Source: a virus. Taken from it: a DNA stretch of 36,396 nucleotides. The position numbers were made by a program, and so were the translations under genes. The notes beneath the pieces were generated by a model, which worked only from the letters and a program-made list of their open reading frames with translations, had not been told where the DNA came from and searched no databases. Shown piece by piece: positions 1,112 to 23,001 of this stretch; within the stretch, counting starts at the first letter, position 1, and each line of letters opens with the position of its first letter. The stretch lies in IMG/VR virus record IMGVR_UViG_3300035211_000028, positions 1-36,396 of that record; one strand, written 5' to 3'.

Positions 1112-3275
1112 TCAGATTTTAGATACAATCAAGTCGAAGCTGACCGGTATCAAGTCCTTGCGTCCTGATTCTTTTCAGGCTCAATGTCCGGCGCATAAAG
1201 ACGACAAGGCTAGCCTAACGGTAAGCATCGGCAAATATAACGACCGGGTGATACTGCATTGTCACGCCGGTTGTGATTATGAATCGATCCTCGATAGCCT
1301 TGACTTAAAGCCCGTTGACTTGTATATCAGCAAGGATAAAAAGCAAATCCAAGCTCTATATGACTATTTAGGCCATGACGGGGAATTGAAGCACCAGACG
1401 GTTAGATTTTCAGATAAGACATTTAGCCAGCGCCGCCCCAATAAGAAGGGCGACTGGGTTTGGAGTCTTCAGGGAATCACGCCGGTGCTTTACCGGTTGC
1501 CTGAACTGCTGGCAATGCCTGATAAGATAGTTTTAGCGGTTGAAGGCGAAAAAGATGCCGACCGTTTAGCGGGAATGGGCTTTCTGGCGACCACAAACGC
1601 GATGGGCGCTGGCAAATGGCGTCCCCAGTATACTGAGACCCTGAGAGGCCGAAAAGTCGCTCTAATCGCAGATAACGATGAAGCAGGGCATAAACACGTT
1701 GAAACAGTAGCTCAATCGCTCCTGGGTAAAGCCGCAAGCGTCAAGGTTATAAAGCTGCCGGACTTGCCGGAAAAGGGCGACGTGAGCGACTGGTTAGATA
1801 ACGGCGGGACGGGCGAGGCGCTAATGGCTATTATTGAGCAAACGCCGGAACATGTCCCCAAGCCGAAAAACCTATCGCCAGAGGCAAGGATAGTCGAGGC
1901 GACACTTGCCGGGACGCCCGATGCTGCATTCTCGATTGTGCCGATACTTGCACGGATGGACGCCAGCGCCTGCGGGATAGCAAAGGCGCAACTTAAAGAC
2001 GCCTGCCCGAAGCTATCCATGCGCGACCTGTCGAAAGCGATAACCGAGGAGCAAAAGCGCATAGCTGAAAGTCAACCCGCCAGGCCGCCGCAACGAAGCA
2101 AAGGCCCGAAAGCTCCGCCCGCCACGTTGCAGGACGTGATTGAATCCTTCCGCAAGTATCTATTTTTTACAGACGACTCGGCAATAAAAATATCACTGGC
2201 AACAGTAGTCGCTAATTTTATGAAAGGTGATCCAGTGTGGCTTATGGTGGTTGCCCCGCCATCAGTTGGAAAAACAGAGATAGTTGAACCGCTTGGCGGG
2301 CTATGGGAGGCGCACGTTGTCTCGACAATTACCGAAGCCGGACTATTACCGGCAACATCGGCAAAGGATAGAGCCAAGAACGCTAATGATGGCCTGCTCC
2401 GGGAGATGGGCGAGTTTGGCATTTTGATCTTAAAGGATTTCGGTTCGATTCTATCAATGAACATGGAAAGCCGCGCCCCGATGCTTGCAGCGCTTCGGGA
2501 GATTTACGATGGGCATTGGTCGAGGATAGTCGGGACGGATGGCGGACGCAAAATCGAATGGAGTGGTAAGGTTGGAATAATCGCCGCGACCACCGATGCA
2601 ATAGACAAACATCACGGCGTTATGGCTACACTGGGAGAGCGGTTTGTTTTATATCGAATCAGCACGCGGGAAGAAGAAGAGCGCACCGACTTTGCGTTAC
2701 AGAGCATCGGCAATGAAGCCAAGCACCGGGAAGATACTCAAAAGAAAATCAGGGGCTTGATAGATAATTTAGACATAAAGGATCATGGCGTTAAACTGAC
2801 TGCTGAAGAGCGCAAGCGCATAAATGCTTTGGCTCGATTTACCGCCCACTGTCGCAGCCCGTCCGGGCGTGATACGCGCACTCACGAGATGTTAGTCCAT
2901 CTGGAATCGGAAGGCCCGACCCGACTGGCTAAGGTTTTCGCATTACTTTATACAGCGATGCTTATACTTGATATTCCTAACACAGAGGCTTGGACGTTGA
3001 TACAGCGTATAGCCAACAACAGTATGCCGAAGATACGCTTTGCCTGTATTTTAACAATTATGAAAGCTGAAAAAGACCTTGCCGGGTTTGCTTCGTTATC
3101 AACCCGTGAAATAGCAACAGCCATAACATTACCGACCTCGACCGTCGAGCGTGCGTTGTATGACCTTGTATCCCATAATGTCTTAACCCGAACTAAAAAA
3201 GCCGACACCGGCAACGCGCCCAACTTTTGGGAACTGAGCGAGTGGGCGCAAAAGACTTTAAAGGAGTGTACGTGA
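1098..3275 (+). CDS. TOPRIM primase-helicase replication protein
   Basis: A 725-residue fusion that probably primes and unwinds DNA at phage forks. The N-terminus has a CHC2-like zinc site (C30, H33, then H54-C-H-A-G-C59). A TOPRIM domain follows with VEGEKDADRL at about 148-157 (catalytic E149), ADNDEAG at 191-197 and DVSDW at 228-232. After a Pro-rich linker (about 326-342) comes an ATPase with a Walker A-like APPSVGKT (386-393), a Walker B-like stretch ending at D447 and a GERF arginine-finger candidate at 513-516. The last 70 residues look like a winged helix (LSTREIATAI...VERALYDL). The combination resembles phage/plasmid primase-helicases rather than DnaG or T7 gp4. No ribosome binding site precedes the ATG; translation is probably coupled to the gene before it. 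Confidence 0.88.
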   Translation: MKTANQILDTIKSKLTGIKSLRPDSFQAQCPAHKDDKASLTVSIGKYNDRVILHCHAGCDYESILDSLDLKPVDLYISKDKKQIQALYDYLGHDGELKHQTVRFSDKTFSQRRPNKKGDWVWSLQGITPVLYRLPELLAMPDKIVLAVEGEKDADRLAGMGFLATTNAMGAGKWRPQYTETLRGRKVALIADNDEAGHKHVETVAQSLLGKAASVKVIKLPDLPEKGDVSDWLDNGGTGEALMAIIEQTPEHVPKPKNLSPEARIVEATLAGTPDAAFSIVPILARMDASACGIAKAQLKDACPKLSMRDLSKAITEEQKRIAESQPARPPQRSKGPKAPPATLQDVIESFRKYLFFTDDSAIKISLATVVANFMKGDPVWLMVVAPPSVGKTEIVEPLGGLWEAHVVSTITEAGLLPATSAKDRAKNANDGLLREMGEFGILILKDFGSILSMNMESRAPMLAALREIYDGHWSRIVGTDGGRKIEWSGKVGIIAATTDAIDKHHGVMATLGERFVLYRISTREEEERTDFALQSIGNEAKHREDTQKKIRGLIDNLDIKDHGVKLTAEERKRINALARFTAHCRSPSGRDTRTHEMLVHLESEGPTRLAKVFALLYTAMLILDIPNTEAWTLIQRIANNSMPKIRFACILTIMKAEKDLAGFASLSTREIATAITLPTSTVERALYDLVSHNVLTRTKKADTGNAPNFWELSEWAQKTLKECT

Positions 3276-3745
3276 AAAGCAAGATATTTATTAAGGGACA
3301 ATCTGTCGGGATTTTCCGTTTAAATAAATATGAAGGATGTTTTATTTCACCGTTAGGACATGAATCTAAATGCTGGGATGTTACATGCGGTTGTTGTGAT
3401 ATAGATTGGTGGATAAGTGAAAAGGAATTGTTAAGAGTAAAACATTTTTATACTTGCGACAAAGTAAATCTACTTGACACTCTTCCAGGATATTTTGAAA
3501 ATAATAAATATCGAACAGAAGAAGGTTATATTTTATTACATAAGCCCGGATCGCTAGAAGTTAAGAATAACGGCTGGGGCTATGAACATCGAATAGTTAT
3601 GGCAGAGCATCTTGGATATGCTATCGGCAATAAAGAGGTACATCATAAAAATGAAAGAAGGAACGACAACAGATTAGAGAACCTTCAAGTATTGACAAAA
3701 GCAAAACATGCCCAAATACATGAACAGATTTTTCAAAGAGCCTGA
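3272..3745 (+). CDS. HNH homing-type endonuclease
   Basis: A 157-residue protein whose C-terminal half has an HNH_3-type nuclease pattern: EHR at 105-107, VHHKNERRNDNR at 123-134, ENLQVLT at 136-142 and H146/H150. Such free-standing nucleases are common mobile genes between phage genes and cut DNA lacking the insertion. The start is GTG 3272, which overlaps the primase stop (GTGA). It is preceded by AAGGAG at 3261-3266, a five-base spacing. An ATG at 3227 further upstream lies inside the primase gene and has no such site. The N-terminal half (Cys- and Trp-rich, CWDVTCGCCDIDWW) is unrecognised. Its codon use looks more AT-rich than the neighbouring primase, as expected for an acquired gene. 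Confidence 0.85.
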   Translation: MKSKIFIKGQSVGIFRLNKYEGCFISPLGHESKCWDVTCGCCDIDWWISEKELLRVKHFYTCDKVNLLDTLPGYFENNKYRTEEGYILLHKPGSLEVKNNGWGYEHRIVMAEHLGYAIGNKEVHHKNERRNDNRLENLQVLTKAKHAQIHEQIFQRA

Positions 3746-3772: not shown

Positions 3773-4570
3773 ATGAACGAACTATCATTATTTACAGGGG
3801 CCGGTGGCGGGATACTTGGAAGCCTTTTATTAGGATGGAGGACAATCGGTTATGTCGAAATTGAAGACTACTGCCAACGAGTGCTCAGACAGCGGATTGA
3901 TGACGGCATCCTGCACGACGCCCCCATCTTCGGCGATATCCGAGCATTCATCAGTGAAGGGTACGCCGAAGCATATTCGGGAATGGTTGACGTTGTTACG
4001 GGGGGATTCCCCTGCCAGCCCTTCTCAGTTGCGGGAAAACAACTGGGAGAGTCTGATAGCAGGAATATGTGGCCTGCCACCATTGAGGCCATTCGCCGAG
4101 TTAAGCCCCGATGGTGCTTGCTGGAGAACGTACCAGGGTTGCTTGCGGCTAGGGACGGGGCCGGACGGCCCTATTTTGGACGAATACTCGGAGACCTGGC
4201 CGAGAGCGGGTATGATGTTAGGTGGAAAGTTATATCGGCGGGAGAGTTGGGAGCGCCGCATCGGAGAGATAGGATTTGGATGCTTGCTACCAACTCCAAT
4301 GTCGAACGATGGAATGCTGAGATCAATCAAGAGGCCTTACGAAATTACTTCAGGGGGAGCTTACAAAATCCGTGGAAAGAAATCGCAGATTCGAGGAACG
4401 GCAACGTTAAAAGATTGCTTTTGGATTGTTTTCAACAAGCCTCTTCATCCGGGTTTATCGGAATGGATGATGGGCTTCCCAGCGAATTGGATGAATATTT
4501 CTCAGCCATTGGGAACGGACAAGTTCCGGCAGTGGTTAGAGCAGCATGGGAGTTATTGAATCATGCCTAA
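3773..4570 (+). CDS. C5 cytosine DNA methyltransferase
   Basis: Transfers methyl groups from S-adenosylmethionine to C5 of cytosine, most likely protecting phage DNA from host restriction. No cognate restriction endonuclease is visible nearby. The 265 residues contain motif I (FTGAGGG, 7-13), motif IV with the catalytic cysteine (GGFPCQPFS, Cys81), motif VI (ENVPG, 118-122), motif VIII (APHRRDRIW, 161-169) and motif X (AIGNGQVPAVV, near the end). The target-recognition region between VIII and IX is short. The ribosome binding site is weak (GGGAAAAAAG). A second long frame runs through most of this gene in the +1 register (3852-4559). Confidence 0.93.
   Translation: MNELSLFTGAGGGILGSLLLGWRTIGYVEIEDYCQRVLRQRIDDGILHDAPIFGDIRAFISEGYAEAYSGMVDVVTGGFPCQPFSVAGKQLGESDSRNMWPATIEAIRRVKPRWCLLENVPGLLAARDGAGRPYFGRILGDLAESGYDVRWKVISAGELGAPHRRDRIWMLATNSNVERWNAEINQEALRNYFRGSLQNPWKEIADSRNGNVKRLLLDCFQQASSSGFIGMDDGLPSELDEYFSAIGNGQVPAVVRAAWELLNHA
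3852..4559 (+). CDS. Overlapping +1-frame ORF within the methyltransferase gene
   Basis: A 235-codon frame lies wholly inside the methyltransferase gene, shifted by one base. It starts at ATG 3852, which has a GGAGG ribosome binding site at 3837-3841 (ten-base spacing). The product is Trp- and Pro-rich with the segments EYSETWPRAGMMLGG, CLLPTPMSNDG and LSEWMMGFPANW. I recall equivalent WPRSGMM...WPTP...EWLMGFP strings in phage and prophage proteins listed next to or inside C5 methyltransferase genes, which suggests a conserved overprinted product. Whether it is translated, and its role, are unknown. An alternative is that these strings are only the frame-shifted image of conserved methyltransferase codons. 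Confidence 0.5.
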   Translation: MSKLKTTANECSDSGLMTASCTTPPSSAISEHSSVKGTPKHIREWLTLLRGDSPASPSQLRENNWESLIAGICGLPPLRPFAELSPDGACWRTYQGCLRLGTGPDGPILDEYSETWPRAGMMLGGKLYRRESWERRIGEIGFGCLLPTPMSNDGMLRSIKRPYEITSGGAYKIRGKKSQIRGTATLKDCFWIVFNKPLHPGLSEWMMGFPANWMNISQPLGTDKFRQWLEQHGSY

Positions 4571-5571: not shown

Positions 5572-6207
5572 ATGATACAAACAATATTACGATATATCCG
5601 GCAGGGTGGATGGTTAAGCAGGTGCGATTTACGCGGGAGCGATTTACGCAGGTGCAATTTACGCGGGAGCAATTTAAGCGGGAGCGATTTAAGCGGGAGC
5701 AATTTACGCGGGAGCGATTTAAGCAGGAGCGATTTAAGCGAGAGCAATTTACGCGGGAGCGATTTAAGCGGTAGCGATTTAAGCGGTAGCAATTTAAGCG
5801 GGAGCGATTTAAGCAGGAGCGATTTAAGCGAGAGCAATTTACGCGGGAGCGATTTACGCGAGAGCAATTTACGCGGGAGCGATTTACGCAGGACATGCTT
5901 AGATTCTGGCTTAAGCGATTTTTCTGCCTTTAAACATCTACCCGATGGCCGTCTAATTGGATACCGTACCCGAAATTCAGAAATAATGAATCCATCATTT
6001 ATATACACTCCCGGCATTCATAGAGCGCCTGTATTTTCACTGGACATTTACAGTTCCTGCCACCCAGGTTTGTATTTTAAGCCTGAAAAAGTCGCAGGCG
6101 ATATAACTGTACTTGTAGACTGTGCAAAGGGCGCTATTTGTGTCGGCGGGAAATATCGTTGCGCCGAGTTCGAGGTTATGCCGAATGATTGGAAAGAAGG
6201 AAAATAA
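5572..6207 (+). CDS. Pentapeptide-repeat protein with DUF5758-like C-terminal domain
   Basis: 211 residues. From about 16 to 107 it is a run of five-residue units of the type (D/N)L(R/S)xS, which fold as a right-handed quadrilateral beta-helix. The C-terminal part (about 125-205: GYRTRNSEIM...HRAPVFSLDIYSSCHPGLYF..KCAEFEV) resembles the DUF5758 domain found after pentapeptide repeats in phage and bacterial proteins. Known pentapeptide proteins such as Qnr and MfpA mimic DNA and bind gyrase; whether this one does is unknown. GGAAGGAG precedes the ATG. The repeat is conserved at DNA level in 15-base units. Confidence 0.85.
   Translation: MIQTILRYIRQGGWLSRCDLRGSDLRRCNLRGSNLSGSDLSGSNLRGSDLSRSDLSESNLRGSDLSGSDLSGSNLSGSDLSRSDLSESNLRGSDLRESNLRGSDLRRTCLDSGLSDFSAFKHLPDGRLIGYRTRNSEIMNPSFIYTPGIHRAPVFSLDIYSSCHPGLYFKPEKVAGDITVLVDCAKGAICVGGKYRCAEFEVMPNDWKEGK
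5627..5892 (+). repeat. 15-bp tandem repeat array coding for the pentapeptides
   Basis: About 18 copies of a 15-base unit such as GATTTAAGCGGGAGC or AATTTACGCGGGAGC lie head to tail in frame. Alternating first base (G/A) and AAGC/ACGC variants give Asp/Asn and Ser/Arg. A block of about 50 bases starting at 5716 recurs at 5806, a period of 90 bases or six units, showing recent higher-order duplication. Confidence 0.9.
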
Positions 6208-16922: not shown

Positions 16923-19900
16923 TTAGTAATACTTTAACAAAAATTCAAATCCGTAAGCATCATAATCGCCGTGAAATTCCCAGTGATCCATGAGAATATC
17001 GCCGCTTGTTATTGTATCACTGGCATTTTGAGTGTACATGATAATCTGTAATTGCGTTATGTCGTTGGGGTCTGGCGTTCCTACGGATGTCCAGCCTGAC
17101 AGAAAATCATCTCCAAACCGTTCCCATATATCAGCCGTTAAATCTGCTTTAGTGTACGATTTGTAATAATAGTTACCACTCGATGTATTGAGGCGAATCC
17201 GTAAACATTCGCCGGATGTTTTCATCACATTATAAGCAGCTGTTTTGAATTTCAACCAACAGCCTGCATTCTTGCCGTCAGGATCGGCGCTTGTAATTGA
17301 TTTAGTATATCCAAATTGTAATGCGGTAGTGCCGTTTTTTCCTAAATCGAGTGATGACCCGCCGAAAACGAAATCAGTATTATTTACAACCTCTGCCGTC
17401 GCCCTGGCGTCCTCTGTCCAATCCGCTGTATCACATGGATCGAGAATTGTCGGATACTTGTTATACCACGTATCTGATATTTTTTCGCCAGGCGTTCCCG
17501 GCGTTGTCGGATCGTCAACTTGTCCCCACGCCTCCCAGCGATTCTCTTCGTCTTCGAGCAATGCAAACCAAAAATCAGTATCGGTAATATCAACGTAACT
17601 GCTATCTGAATTTTTTTGCTTCCACGCAAGGCCATCGGCATAAGGATTAGTTGCAAGCCCCTGAACACTCCATTGATTTGAGTATTTTTCTGCAATCAAA
17701 TATGAAGCAATATCATAATAATCATCAGCAATCCAAGCACCATCTCGATATAAAACTAATTTACCATCAACATATTTATTATATGGTGAACCTAATGAAT
17801 AATATCGCTCTGGCCATGTTAAATCAAAAGTTTCAAGTATTATTGCATACAAAGTATTTGCTGTAAGTGTGGTTGTAAATTTATAAAATAATGTTGTTTG
17901 TATATTAGGCGGTATATCTACAGTGCCAGATGCATGAACAGTATTAGGCAATCCACCGCTAGTAGTATAAATTTTATAATTTAATGTTTGAGCTATTCCA
18001 GTTGTAACAAGATAACCTTTAAGTGCAATCGTTGGATTTATAATATCCCTGCTATCTTTAAACATCTGCCCACATTTAGCATCATTTGGGAAACCAGGCG
18101 GCTGCCTTCCACCGGTTTGACGTAAATTAGATTGGTCGGTATTAAAATTAACAATATCATCGCTGGCGTATGCTTCACATAATTTCCAGCAATAAGACGT
18201 TGCACCGGTTAATGTTGGCGGTGACGAAAAAGTATATATTTTTTTACCTTCACCAAAACTTGATAAATTTATAATATCAGAAGTGGCGAGCACTCCACCT
18301 GTAGGATGACCACTGCCATCAGCCGCATATATTTCAACATACGTGGCAAAATTTAACGTCCTTTTAGTATTCCATTTTAAATAAACAGCTATTCCGTCAA
18401 CTTGCGTTGTAGACGGTATTTGAAAACTCTGCCCGAATGCTTTTATATCATTATCACTTTCAGTAAAATCAATGAAATTGTCTGGATAATCAAACGGTTT
18501 GAAGAATTCCTCAGAAAATGGCAAATCAATTACAAATGCGTATTCCTTATCTTGTTCTACTTCAATTCTGGACGCAGCCGGAAATAAAAATGTATACGTT
18601 CCACTTGAAGCTGCATAAGGAATCAATGTCGGCTGGCTTATGCAAAGCGGATCACCAGTCGGTAAGCTGTTAGAATCGGTATCATATATTGATACTGTTA
18701 TATAAGTATCATTATCGAGCGAATGTTTCAATTCAAAATCAACTGAATAGGGTACAGCTTCATCCAATCCTAAAGCCCAAGACATTGAACCATATTCAAC
18801 TGTAGATGCAAATTTAATCCACTTATTACCGACGATTGGCGAATGTTCTGCCAATTGCTCAAGGATAGGTTTAGTATATTTTCTGCATTGTACAGTTAAT
18901 GAATGTCGTTTGCTTACATCAAAATCATGAGTAAGACCCATCACAATATATTTTTCATTGAGATTTAACAGTGTATTAGTATATTGAATAACCGTTCCAA
19001 TTTCGAGAGCGAAAATTTCAGGATATAATTCATCAAGTGTAAATTCAAGTTTAAATCCAGGAAATGAAAAATTGTTTAAAATATATCTCGCTACGAAAGT
19101 CGCATATAAGCCGCTTGGCGTTAATTCATTATCTACCTCAAGTTCTTTCAAGCCATATTTATCTTGACTTTCTTGATCTTCTTCTGTATACCACATACTG
19201 TTATAATCAACTTTTATACGATTTAATACCGAAGCAATATCCCAGCCGAATCTAGGTCTTCCTGAATTTATTTCATTAAAATACCATTCAGGGGCTTTGC
19301 CTGATAGCCATTGATTTGATTTGAAAACATAATTACCATTGCCGTCAATAAAATGATGATGCTGGCCAGCTTCAACAATTTTATTAAGACATTCAATTGC
19401 TTTTTCATTATTCCAAGTCACAGGCGCAAGTAAAACTTGACTTGTATCGTCAATATCCCAATCAACTTCATCAAGACCCATTGCCGTTAAAACGTTTATT
19501 ATTGTATCGCTTGCTATTTGTGCTGGAACTGAACCAAGAGAAATTTCAGTCTCTTTGAATTGATAAAATTCATCTTCAAGATAAACAGTTACAACTTGCA
19601 TTCCTATTTTTGGAGACGGAGTGATCTTTTTTATAAATCCAGTGAACAGCGGGCCTCCATATTCTTCGTAAAAACCAAAAACCTGTATCTCGGCCATAAT
19701 ATCAAATAGACCATAAAACGGTGATAATTCATTATCTGGATTAAATTGACCATCATCATTTTCTAAAGTAATATCACAAGTACCGACTATTATCTGACCG
19801 TCAACATCGTTCTTGCCTGTGTTGATAGTTACTTGTTTAACATAATCGGTTATATCATCTGCTTCAATCACGTAGGTCATATTGATTTTTGGAACATTGC

Positions 19901-20855
19901 TATCATAAGTTAATGCTCCAACATATTTATAAGCACGTTGAATATACATTTCATTATTATCGCCAAAATAACCAGCGCCAGGATCAGTGCTATAGTATCC
20001 ATACCATCTATTATTAGGCCATTTGAATGGGCCTGGATCGCCTTCCAATAAATCAGAATAGCAAATTATATAATAATAATCATTTTTAATTAGTGTCACA
20101 TCTGAAAAATAAAAAGTCCATTTACCATCTTGTTCGTAATAATTTTGAGACGTAGCTAATAAATCACCTGAATCATTTCTTATCTCACATCTTATAGAGC
20201 GTCTAGTTGTACCGTCAAAATGACCGTAAAAAGAAACGCTAGTAAAACGTATTGAAGAACCAGAGCCTACATAACGTATTCTTGCGCCAAATTTACTATA
20301 ATTGAAATAATCAAAAAGTAAATAGGCGTAGCAATCATCCGCCGAGATTTTAGTCCATGATCCACTTTCATATTTTATCGCATCTTCAATATAAGTAACG
20401 GGTGAAGAAGTATCTTTGTGTATTTTCCAATAATTTGTATCATCCTGTGCGCCAGTGCGCTCTACTGCAAAAAAGTATTCTTTATTAGCTTCTAACTCTA
20501 CATAAGGAAATTCAAAAACGCCATAACCAGAACCAGTCCCTACTAATTGTGATGAAATAGCGATAACTTCTTCATTAGAATTATATAATTTACATGTTAA
20601 ATAATCGGTAGGAGTCCCTTGCACAGTTCGCCATATCGCAACACCGAGGAAACGCCTTGCTCCATCAAACTCAAAGACTTGTCCATATTTTTGAATCCCG
20701 GTGGTCTTGCCTAGATCAATACTGTTAGTAACATTCCCGCAAGTTATTTCTTCAAAATATAAAATTCCAAAACTATGTTCAGAATTAGCATCAGGTTGGC
20801 GCAACGCCGCAGATTTGCCAAGACTTATTCTGTATTCAGGTAAGGTCACGACCAT
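16923..20855 (-). CDS. Tail-tip hub and adhesin (putative receptor-binding protein)
   Basis: About 1310 residues. A central domain (roughly 340-700) has the tail-hub pattern VDGQIIVGTCDITLENDDGQFNPDNELSPFYG, then GPLFTGFI and SIITVYLEDE-like strands. Several repeated beta-sandwich modules flank it: two before, and at least three after, recognised by K-GQ-F openings (KYGQVFEF, AFGQSFQI, KCGQMFKD) and LTANTLYAIILE/DGAWI-type endings. These resemble choice-of-anchor carbohydrate-binding-like domains. The last 180 residues look like a lectin-type jelly roll. The protein probably forms the tail tip and contacts the host surface. ATG 20855 has GAGG upstream and is preferred to a TTG at 20867; it overlaps the tape-measure gene. 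Confidence 0.75.
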   Translation of the reverse strand: MVVTLPEYRISLGKSAALRQPDANSEHSFGILYFEEITCGNVTNSIDLGKTTGIQKYGQVFEFDGARRFLGVAIWRTVQGTPTDYLTCKLYNSNEEVIAISSQLVGTGSGYGVFEFPYVELEANKEYFFAVERTGAQDDTNYWKIHKDTSSPVTYIEDAIKYESGSWTKISADDCYAYLLFDYFNYSKFGARIRYVGSGSSIRFTSVSFYGHFDGTTRRSIRCEIRNDSGDLLATSQNYYEQDGKWTFYFSDVTLIKNDYYYIICYSDLLEGDPGPFKWPNNRWYGYYSTDPGAGYFGDNNEMYIQRAYKYVGALTYDSNVPKINMTYVIEADDITDYVKQVTINTGKNDVDGQIIVGTCDITLENDDGQFNPDNELSPFYGLFDIMAEIQVFGFYEEYGGPLFTGFIKKITPSPKIGMQVVTVYLEDEFYQFKETEISLGSVPAQIASDTIINVLTAMGLDEVDWDIDDTSQVLLAPVTWNNEKAIECLNKIVEAGQHHHFIDGNGNYVFKSNQWLSGKAPEWYFNEINSGRPRFGWDIASVLNRIKVDYNSMWYTEEDQESQDKYGLKELEVDNELTPSGLYATFVARYILNNFSFPGFKLEFTLDELYPEIFALEIGTVIQYTNTLLNLNEKYIVMGLTHDFDVSKRHSLTVQCRKYTKPILEQLAEHSPIVGNKWIKFASTVEYGSMSWALGLDEAVPYSVDFELKHSLDNDTYITVSIYDTDSNSLPTGDPLCISQPTLIPYAASSGTYTFLFPAASRIEVEQDKEYAFVIDLPFSEEFFKPFDYPDNFIDFTESDNDIKAFGQSFQIPSTTQVDGIAVYLKWNTKRTLNFATYVEIYAADGSGHPTGGVLATSDIINLSSFGEGKKIYTFSSPPTLTGATSYCWKLCEAYASDDIVNFNTDQSNLRQTGGRQPPGFPNDAKCGQMFKDSRDIINPTIALKGYLVTTGIAQTLNYKIYTTSGGLPNTVHASGTVDIPPNIQTTLFYKFTTTLTANTLYAIILETFDLTWPERYYSLGSPYNKYVDGKLVLYRDGAWIADDYYDIASYLIAEKYSNQWSVQGLATNPYADGLAWKQKNSDSSYVDITDTDFWFALLEDEENRWEAWGQVDDPTTPGTPGEKISDTWYNKYPTILDPCDTADWTEDARATAEVVNNTDFVFGGSSLDLGKNGTTALQFGYTKSITSADPDGKNAGCWLKFKTAAYNVMKTSGECLRIRLNTSSGNYYYKSYTKADLTADIWERFGDDFLSGWTSVGTPDPNDITQLQIIMYTQNASDTITSGDILMDHWEFHGDYDAYGFEFLLKYY

Positions 20856-23001
20856 TTTCCTCGTCAATATACGTAATTATCTCACGAGCGAAAAGCCGTG
20901 CCTCAGAGGGATTTCCCATCATCGGGCCAGTGAAAGTAACATTATAATTTTTCGTTCCCATACCGCCCATTTTGCTAAGTGGGATAACAGCTTCGGGGCC
21001 ATCTTCGCCAAATAATCCTATTGTCGGCTTTTTAACTATACCGCCCGCTTGAAATCTCGGAAAGCTTTGTTTTATTTGTGCCCTAGTTATATCTGCCAAT
21101 GAGACGCCACCTGTCAAACCCATTGCCCAGGCCTGACCTCCGCTAACCGTCCCGCCAGTTGCGGCTTGTATTGCCTGTAAAGCCGAATCAGCGGCTTGAG
21201 CCATAGCGCTAGCAAGAGATGGTGCATTTTCAGTTACTCCGCTTGCTACTTCGTTGATTATATTTTTACCACTCTCCTGCAATCCAACCAACGGGCCGAT
21301 TTTAGCAGGTGAGAATGGAAGCATGTCACGAAGCGATTGTAATATGCCTTTCAATGCGTCAATTGGCTTATGGGCCATTGATTTTATGCCTTCCCATAGT
21401 TGCTTGATTATATTTACGCCAGCATCCCAAAATGCACTGCCGAGTCCTTTAATCCAATCAATAGCTTTCGTCCATATTCCCTTTATAAATTCCCATCCCT
21501 TATTGAAAATATCTTTTATCCAATCCCATGCCGCCGAAAATACGCCCTTAATTGTATCCCATATTCCACCGTAAAAATCTTTCACGAAATCCCACCATTG
21601 ATTAAAAATGTCAGTTAGCCAATCAAGTATTGGATCGAAAATTCCCTTGATAAATTCCCATGCCGCCTCAAAAGCTGATTTAATAGCATCCCATATACCG
21701 CCATAAAACGACTTAACAAAATCCCACCACGCCTCAAATACAGATTTAATTGTATCAAATATCATAGTATAATATCCCTGTATCCATCCCCAAGCTGTAG
21801 TAACTATGTTCTTTACAAAATCCCATGCGCCGCCGATAATATATTTAATGTATTCAATTACCATTTGAGTTTTCTCTTGTATGCCGCCCCAATTTCGAGA
21901 CCACGCAAGAGCCAGCGCGACAACGGCTAGTGCAATCCCTTCAATAATCCATAGTATTGGGCCGCCTGCTACTTGCAAGGCAATGAAACTAGCCGCTGCA
22001 GACGTAAGCGCTGGTATAACAGTAGACATAATCGTAGTCCCAATAGCAGCAAGAGCCGGAACTGCTGTAGTTGCTATTGTGCCAATTCCACCGATAGCCA
22101 TACCAATACCCATTAGTGGAGCGGATAACATTCCCGCTGCTTGCAATAATTCAGCATGTTCAAAAGCAAATTCTTTCATCCAATGCGCCGCTTTTTCTGT
22201 AGTAGTCATATTTTCAAGTACAACGTTTGCCATATCCTGCAGTTTACCATCGGCTGCTTCAACGTTTTGAGTCATGGCTTGTAATTGCTCATTTGTAAGC
22301 CCTAGTCCTTCTAAAAATTGTTCACGACCTTCAGCTGTCGTCATTATTTGATTGAGTTCTGTTAGGGCGGCACGCCCAGAAATACCACGTTCCTCGAGGA
22401 CTTTTAGTATTGCTGCCATTTCATTGACATCAGTTCCAACTTTCTTAGCTTCAGGAGCTAATCTTGTAAGCGTTCTAAGAAATTCCTCGACACCGGCAGT
22501 TGTTTGTGTATGAACAAATCCAAGCGCTGCCATTGCCTGTTGCTCTTCGCCAGCAGCAACGCCAAAGGCTTTTAAACCCACAGCACCTTCAGCCATAGCA
22601 ACGGAACTCGCACCTATTGCATCGCCTACAGTATCCCAAAACGTAGCAAACGCCTGCATATCCTCGGCAGTTTTTATACCCTGCTTCCCGGCAATAGCAA
22701 AAAGCTCTGTAACTTCTTTTAAAGGAAAAGTGGCATTAGATGTTTCAGTAGCTAAATTACGAAGCACCTCTGCATCCATATCAACAGCTATCGCAAGTTG
22801 ATCAAGGCTAACATTTACATCGCGTGCCTGTCGAGCTATCGCCTCAAGCGCAACGCCAGCCGCACCGATGCCAACGGCTAATTCCTTCCAGTTATCCTTG
22901 ATGAATTGTGCAGCCTGACCGCCAGCTTCACCAACCTGTTTAAACGTTGCCGAGGCATCGTCTTTAGCTGTAATAGTTACTGCTACTTTAGGGTCTGCCA
23001 T
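20836..23001 (-). CDS. Tape measure protein
   Basis: 721 residues. It sets tail length and is ejected with DNA. The N-terminal half is helical and Ala-rich; hydrophobic helices at about 290-375 are typical membrane-interacting segments. About 385-545 is a series of Trp-rich repeats (WDFVKSFYGGIWDAIKSAFEAAWEFIKGIFD type). The C-terminus has AGGIVKKPTIGLFGEDGPEAVIPL, a widespread tape-measure ending. At the usual 0.15 nm per residue it predicts a tail of about 110 nm. The ATG overlaps the stop of the preceding short frame (TAATG). Confidence 0.9.
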   Translation of the reverse strand: MADPKVAVTITAKDDASATFKQVGEAGGQAAQFIKDNWKELAVGIGAAGVALEAIARQARDVNVSLDQLAIAVDMDAEVLRNLATETSNATFPLKEVTELFAIAGKQGIKTAEDMQAFATFWDTVGDAIGASSVAMAEGAVGLKAFGVAAGEEQQAMAALGFVHTQTTAGVEEFLRTLTRLAPEAKKVGTDVNEMAAILKVLEERGISGRAALTELNQIMTTAEGREQFLEGLGLTNEQLQAMTQNVEAADGKLQDMANVVLENMTTTEKAAHWMKEFAFEHAELLQAAGMLSAPLMGIGMAIGGIGTIATTAVPALAAIGTTIMSTVIPALTSAAASFIALQVAGGPILWIIEGIALAVVALALAWSRNWGGIQEKTQMVIEYIKYIIGGAWDFVKNIVTTAWGWIQGYYTMIFDTIKSVFEAWWDFVKSFYGGIWDAIKSAFEAAWEFIKGIFDPILDWLTDIFNQWWDFVKDFYGGIWDTIKGVFSAAWDWIKDIFNKGWEFIKGIWTKAIDWIKGLGSAFWDAGVNIIKQLWEGIKSMAHKPIDALKGILQSLRDMLPFSPAKIGPLVGLQESGKNIINEVASGVTENAPSLASAMAQAADSALQAIQAATGGTVSGGQAWAMGLTGGVSLADITRAQIKQSFPRFQAGGIVKKPTIGLFGEDGPEAVIPLSKMGGMGTKNYNVTFTGPMMGNPSEARLFAREIITYIDEENGRDLT

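Follow-up and report, generated by a model that had tools for sequence, protein, structure and literature searches.

A nested +1-frame gene that probably encodes the DNA-recognition subunit of a phage C5 cytosine methyltransferase

INTRODUCTION

Enzymes of the kind considered here, C5 cytosine methyltransferases composed of two polypeptides, are already known, and M.AquI and M.EcoHK31I are examples. In C5 methyltransferases generally, the part of the chain from motif VIII to motif X is assigned to the small domain, which has the target-recognition domain and motif IX (PMC3404938). M.AquI is divided in the variable region, such that its small subunit carries motifs IX and X (PMC3404938). In M.EcoHK31I, the alpha polypeptide holds motifs I-VIII and X and motif IX resides alone on a small polypeptide, and the recognition domain is predicted to lie in the large subunit (PMC3404938). 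Fragments of M.SssI complement each other best if the C-terminal piece begins between motif VIII and the recognition domain (PMC3404938), which marks this point as a natural place to split the enzyme. Both M.EcoHK31I (YGGCCR) and M.EaeI belong to restriction-modification systems, and in this respect the phage locus described below may differ. The small gene of M.EcoHK31I reportedly lies wholly within the large gene, in a different reading frame.

Where two genes on one strand of a bacterial or large-phage genome overlap over a long distance, the overlap is usually taken as an annotation error, and gene finders retain only one of the two frames. Here we describe such an overlap in a phage methyltransferase gene, in which two frames of the same DNA very probably encode a two-subunit C5 methyltransferase of the M.EcoHK31I kind, as judged from sequence comparisons, with a catalytic subunit (alpha) and a subunit predicted to recognize DNA (beta).

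RESULTS AND DISCUSSION

Organization of the methyltransferase locus

The window, by which we mean the whole stretch of DNA that was analysed, is a 36,396-base record of a tailed phage in which terminase, portal, head protease and tape-measure genes were found. The features of the methyltransferase locus are listed in Table 1.

Table 1. Features of the methyltransferase locus and their positions in the window
Feature	Positions	Strand	Basis or remark
HNH endonuclease	3275..3745	+	PF13392, 6.7e-11; directly upstream of alpha
Alpha, C5 cytosine methyltransferase, 265 aa	3773..4570	+	Motifs I-VIII and X, without motif IX
Alpha frame, motifs I-VIII	3773..4288	+	PCQ 4010-4018, ENV 4124-4132; alignment
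GGAGG, Shine-Dalgarno-like	3837..3841	+	10 nt 5' of beta ATG
Beta, nested +1-frame gene, 235 aa	3852..4559	+	phrog_1008, 2e-16; family stop depletion, codon register
Conserved beta N-terminal domain, SETWPRAGMM	4086..4301	+	TWPRAGMM 4194-4217; overprinted on alpha motifs VI-VIII
LLPTP, start of proposed beta recognition segment	4284..4298	+	Sequence; LPTP modules in relatives
VIII-IX segment: proposed target-recognition segment (beta), passenger linker (alpha)	4289..4432	+	Register in relatives
EWMMGFPANW, motif-IX-like, beta frame	4461..4490	+	hhalign to single-chain relatives
GNGQVP, motif X, alpha frame	4511..4528	+	Alignments

The alpha product matches phrog_363 (5e-57) and, through residues 2-187 only, PF00145 (1.9e-36). 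The PCQ and EN motifs are invariant in the alignments, and alpha possesses the catalytic core with PCQ and ENV motifs expected of a PF00145 C5 enzyme. It is not a complete single chain with motifs IX and X, since motif X is found in frame 0 and motif IX is absent there. The initial annotation had credited the main frame with every catalytic motif; this is correct for motifs I-VIII and X, but motif IX is missing and the alignment to PF00145 covers only profile positions 2-175 of 324. In an AlphaFold model of alpha, core residues 1-180 mostly have pLDDT values above 83, residues 191-250 fall to about 41-56, and the final helix, which carries motif X, returns to 84-87. Foldseek matched this model to M.HaeIII and M.HhaI over about 180 of 325 residues. 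Judging from the model, alpha is devoid of a folded small domain.

Beta lies entirely within the alpha reading frame and extends for 235 codons, from the ATG at 3852 to a stop codon at 4557-4559. This open frame, the GGAGG ten bases before its ATG and the strings TWPRAGMM, LLPTP and EWMMGFPANW are all present as the initial annotation had reported, and the same strings are indeed found again in proteins of phages and prophages that neighbour C5 methyltransferases. LPTP modules likewise recur among relatives, single-chain enzymes included. The database search that had been suggested for the alternate frame returned phrog_1008 (E 2e-16), phrog_26627 and phrog_35493 from PHROG, as well as 33 phage records at E<=1e-3, seven of which match over at least 80% of the length of the beta product. 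No Pfam or NCBIfam family matched this product. Of the 12 loci in the window's group, 9 have an ATG within alpha codons 23-30 that is accompanied by a Shine-Dalgarno-like tetramer, compared with 1.6 expected from synonymous shuffling.

The HNH_3 endonuclease encoded upstream of alpha resembles phage HNH proteins and may be a homing endonuclease. Elsewhere in the window, positions 5572-6207 encode a protein of pentapeptide-type repeats (SDLRGSDLRRCNLRGS), and an open reading frame of about 1313 aa on the minus strand (16923-20867), for which no PHROG match was found, adjoins the tape-measure gene.

Conservation of the +1 frame as protein

Synonymous shuffling, which preserves both the alpha protein and its codon usage, was used to estimate how often the +1 frame would be open by chance. 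Only 2 of 20,000 synonymous shuffles of the alpha gene in the window left the +1 frame open over the span of beta, and no shuffle of codon order did so (0 of 20,000). Over the whole gene, the real +1 frame contains three stop codons versus a mean of 8.7 in synonymous shuffles. Furthermore, the beta N-terminal domain of the window scores 92 bits against its profile, compared with at most 40 bits in synonymous shuffles of the same gene.

The same pattern extends to the relatives. Frequent +1 stops in homologous methyltransferase genes had been named in advance as evidence against dual coding. However, 165 homologous loci that were picked by alpha only, with no requirement for a beta hit, carry 229 such stops versus 680 expected from shuffles, even though the 229 include the stop codons of beta itself and any located further downstream. 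The +2 frame of these loci exhibits no depletion (1842 stops versus 1896 expected). A second set of 95 loci, for which hits to both beta domains were required and whose stop count is circular to that extent, has no stops in 15,206 beta codons versus 300 expected. Within this set, the real beta motif-IX profile score was reached by no shuffle at any locus, and the N-domain score averages 57 versus 17 in shuffles, with the real N-domain score being reached by at least one shuffle in 17 of the 95 loci. As a control, we analysed 18 canonical single-chain C5 methyltransferases from Enterobacteriaceae, whose +1 frames carry 279 stops versus 290 expected and yield no beta-like match. Finally, the excess of +1 identity over synonymous shuffles is.05-.11 in the family versus.006 in these canonical controls. 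From these results we conclude that the +1 frame is conserved as protein.

Codon register in the two frames

To establish which frame is constrained in which part of the gene, differences were counted for each alpha codon position in close pairs of relatives. Over motifs I-VIII, all 52 pairs vary more at alpha position 3 than at position 1, as in any ordinary gene. Downstream of motif VIII and as far as motif IX, the beta register takes over in all 20 independent close pairs in which this segment can be aligned. When these pairs are pooled, alpha position 1, which is position 3 of beta, differs at a rate of.260, and the other two positions differ at.078 and.065. Amino acid differences in the segment accordingly amount to.293 for alpha versus.112 for beta. 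This strict set required at least 75% identity in the recognition segment, and it was adopted because the register signal becomes blurred in pairs whose recognition segments are unrelated to each other (31 of 52 in the wider set). Where the beta motif-IX stretch overlaps alpha motif X, both frames are constrained. The nearest relatives of the window gene are only about 60-64% identical to it in nucleotide sequence, and the register switch is therefore a result for the family and not for this particular gene.

By the measure of codon register, the catalytic half is encoded by alpha and the variable segment by beta, and either frame is for the most part a passenger in the part that the other governs. 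Across the family, the results bear out the selection test that the initial annotation had proposed, in that synonymous variation in the main frame is reduced and the alternate frame is under purifying selection. On these sequence comparisons, we regard the nesting, the conservation of beta as protein and the segment-wise constraint of the two frames within the family as demonstrated.

Identity of the nested product

Several actinobacteriophage enzymes are single chains that carry, in order, motifs I-VIII, LPTP modules, a stretch resembling EWMMGWPTGW and motif X. The C-terminal part of beta aligns with the segment just before motif X in these single-chain relatives (hhalign probability 97.3, E 2e-11). 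Moreover, phrog_1008 spans both the C-terminal part of beta and the corresponding single-chain segment, matching the latter at 1e-57 in one such enzyme (L003). Beta, which the initial annotation had left with no assigned function, would thus be related to the smaller subunit of those C5 methyltransferases that are made of two polypeptides. Most likely it constitutes the DNA-recognition half of the enzyme, with a target-recognition segment followed by a stretch that resembles motif IX.

Ordinary C5 methyltransferases showed no significant match to beta at the profile level, and the motif-IX label is therefore founded on where the stretch lies, on its pattern and on the single-chain relatives. 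PDB likewise returned nothing significant for beta, whether searched by sequence or by profile. When modelled alone, beta reached a low pLDDT of 63 with no PDB fold match, and this structure was not used as evidence.

Architectures and distribution of the family

Four arrangements of the motifs were encountered. The nested type found in the window, in which alpha carries motifs I-VIII and X and beta carries the recognition segment and motif IX, accounts for 249 loci by automatic classification. In the staggered type (13 loci, scattered on the tree), alpha stops after motif VIII and beta contains the recognition segment and motifs IX and X. In a sister lineage, motifs IX and X are in frame 0 and the recognition segment is in a +1 open reading frame (52 loci with motif IX in frame 0). 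At several of its loci (L311, L320, L343, L348) the +1 frame ends at the frame-0 motif IX. Stop codons in the +1 frame of 49 sister-lineage loci number 27 versus 105 expected between motifs VIII and IX, and 236 versus 203 expected after motif IX. The fourth type comprises some actinobacteriophage genes that have the recognition modules in frame 0 (L003, L296-L298). On a tree of the alpha core, the canonical enzymes are placed apart, and architecture changes state 11 times, compared with about 57 times when labels are shuffled.

Host records span many bacterial phyla and include plasmids of Leptospira, Nostoc and Acinetobacter, as well as a plasmid of the archaeon Methanomethylovorans. Alpha alone is annotated in the records from these four genera and from E. 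coli, and in phage SOVA965 part of beta alone is annotated. On balance, we favour the view that one whole lineage of C5 methyltransferases, found in phages, across many bacterial phyla and on a plasmid of at least one archaeon, shares a +1-nested gene for a recognition subunit, that motif IX, and sometimes motif X, has moved between the frames, and that databases annotate a single protein in most of the records inspected.

At the loci examined, beta always accompanies an alpha gene, except for one extra copy. This second, stand-alone beta-like copy (L110:3629-4195; phrog_1008, 1.8e-7) is located directly 3' of a complete nested pair and could be a spare recognition subunit. An E. coli prophage copy (L290:1501-2262), which is annotated as a pseudogene, has an internal stop codon in alpha and a stop nearby in the beta frame.

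Proposed mechanism and alternative explanations

We propose that translation of alpha from the ATG at 3773 would yield the SAM-binding, catalytic half of the enzyme, with motifs I-VIII and X. On the same message, 79 bases further on and in the +1 frame, beta would be started from a ribosome-binding site of its own, and such independent initiation is supported by the conserved start site. The beta protein, composed of the overprinted N-terminal domain, the target-recognition segment and the motif-IX-like stretch, is predicted to recognize DNA. Alpha and beta would assemble into an enzyme that methylates the phage DNA, most likely as protection against host restriction.

Other explanations for the overlap were weighed. 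The +1 frame could be open and similar among relatives merely through conservation of the main-frame protein, and parts of the beta N-terminal region do echo alpha. Such a codon echo is nevertheless extremely improbable and was rejected, given that neither synonymous shuffles nor the +2 frame nor canonical enzymes behave in this way and that the codon register changes over to beta; on this point the initial annotation, which had raised conservation as protein as the condition for dual coding, is upheld. A frameshifted or broken gene was likewise rejected because both frames are intact and conserved, in agreement with the earlier judgement that this is not a simple frameshift.

Ribosomal frameshifting, in turn, could join the frames into one fused alpha-beta chain, in which case beta would not be started separately. 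Such frameshifts are known in phages, and in staggered relatives (L016, L017, L305) a single +1 shift beyond motif VIII would produce a complete chain with motifs I-X. However, any shift that served this purpose would have to occur downstream of the beta N-terminal domain, and the conservation of that domain in the +1 frame makes a single frameshift product unlikely. The start site with its Shine-Dalgarno sequence is also conserved in the window's group, linking motifs I-VIII, IX and X in the window type would demand two shifts of opposite sense, and the frame in which motif IX is found differs among lineages. It is very unlikely that beta is instead a real protein of unrelated function, such as a regulator, an anti-restriction factor or a lysis factor, that merely happens to be located inside a methyltransferase gene. 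Overprinted phage genes are often accessory factors, and beta alone has neither a known fold nor a Pfam family, but its C-terminal part is homologous to the VIII-X segment of single-chain C5 methyltransferases, alpha has neither motif IX nor a folded small domain, and beta stays beside alpha at the loci examined, save for the extra copy in L110. We therefore retain the two-subunit methyltransferase as the preferred explanation.

Comparison with described systems

The window was compared with M.EcoHK31I and M.EaeI through their descriptions. As in those enzymes, the large subunit predicted from the window sequence carries motifs I-VIII and X, and a motif-IX-like stretch resides on a second polypeptide. 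The nesting of 3852-4559 inside 3773-4570 also parallels the arrangement said to exist for M.EcoHK31I. The recognition domain is placed differently, since register and homology assign it here to beta and not to the large subunit; the location predicted for M.EcoHK31I, a weak defining feature, does not hold in the family, in which the segment between motifs VIII and IX is constrained in the beta frame in 20 of 20 pairs of relatives. The likeness to M.AquI consists in the division of a C5 methyltransferase into two polypeptides, but the window keeps motif X on alpha and so does not have the M.AquI-type split. Staggered relatives (L004, L016, L017, L022, L035, L043) do have the M.AquI division of motifs, with a long +1 overlap in addition.

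Alpha and beta correspond to phrog_363 and phrog_1008, phage 'DNA methyltransferase' families that are listed as separate proteins in library entries that make no mention of the two being frames of a single gene. Another enzyme of possible relevance is M.BatI, a C5 methyltransferase encoded by a prophage and toxic to E. coli independently of its catalysis (PMC8936443). Its small size, its CxGxxG motif I and its very short recognition domain resemble the sister lineage (SLCSGYGG). M.BatI is described as one protein, whereas the sister lineage has its recognition segment in the +1 frame; by analogy, M.BatI might have a hidden nested +1 gene.

We found no description of this overlap in phages in open-access papers. 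Likewise, the open-access literature yielded no account of the breadth of the nested family, of a recognition segment in the nested subunit or of the movement of motif IX. Three points thus appear to be new: the breadth of nesting, the placing of the recognition segment in beta and the change of motif IX from one frame to the other in sister lineages.

Implications

If the interpretation offered here is true, many annotated cytosine methyltransferases are represented in databases without their recognition subunit, and predictions of specificity or cloning efforts that start from the annotated protein could fail. Two enzyme halves encoded by the same DNA, with the frames constrained in different segments, would also constitute a clean natural system of overlapping genes. 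Moreover, members of the family would be naturally split methyltransferases with exchangeable recognition subunits.
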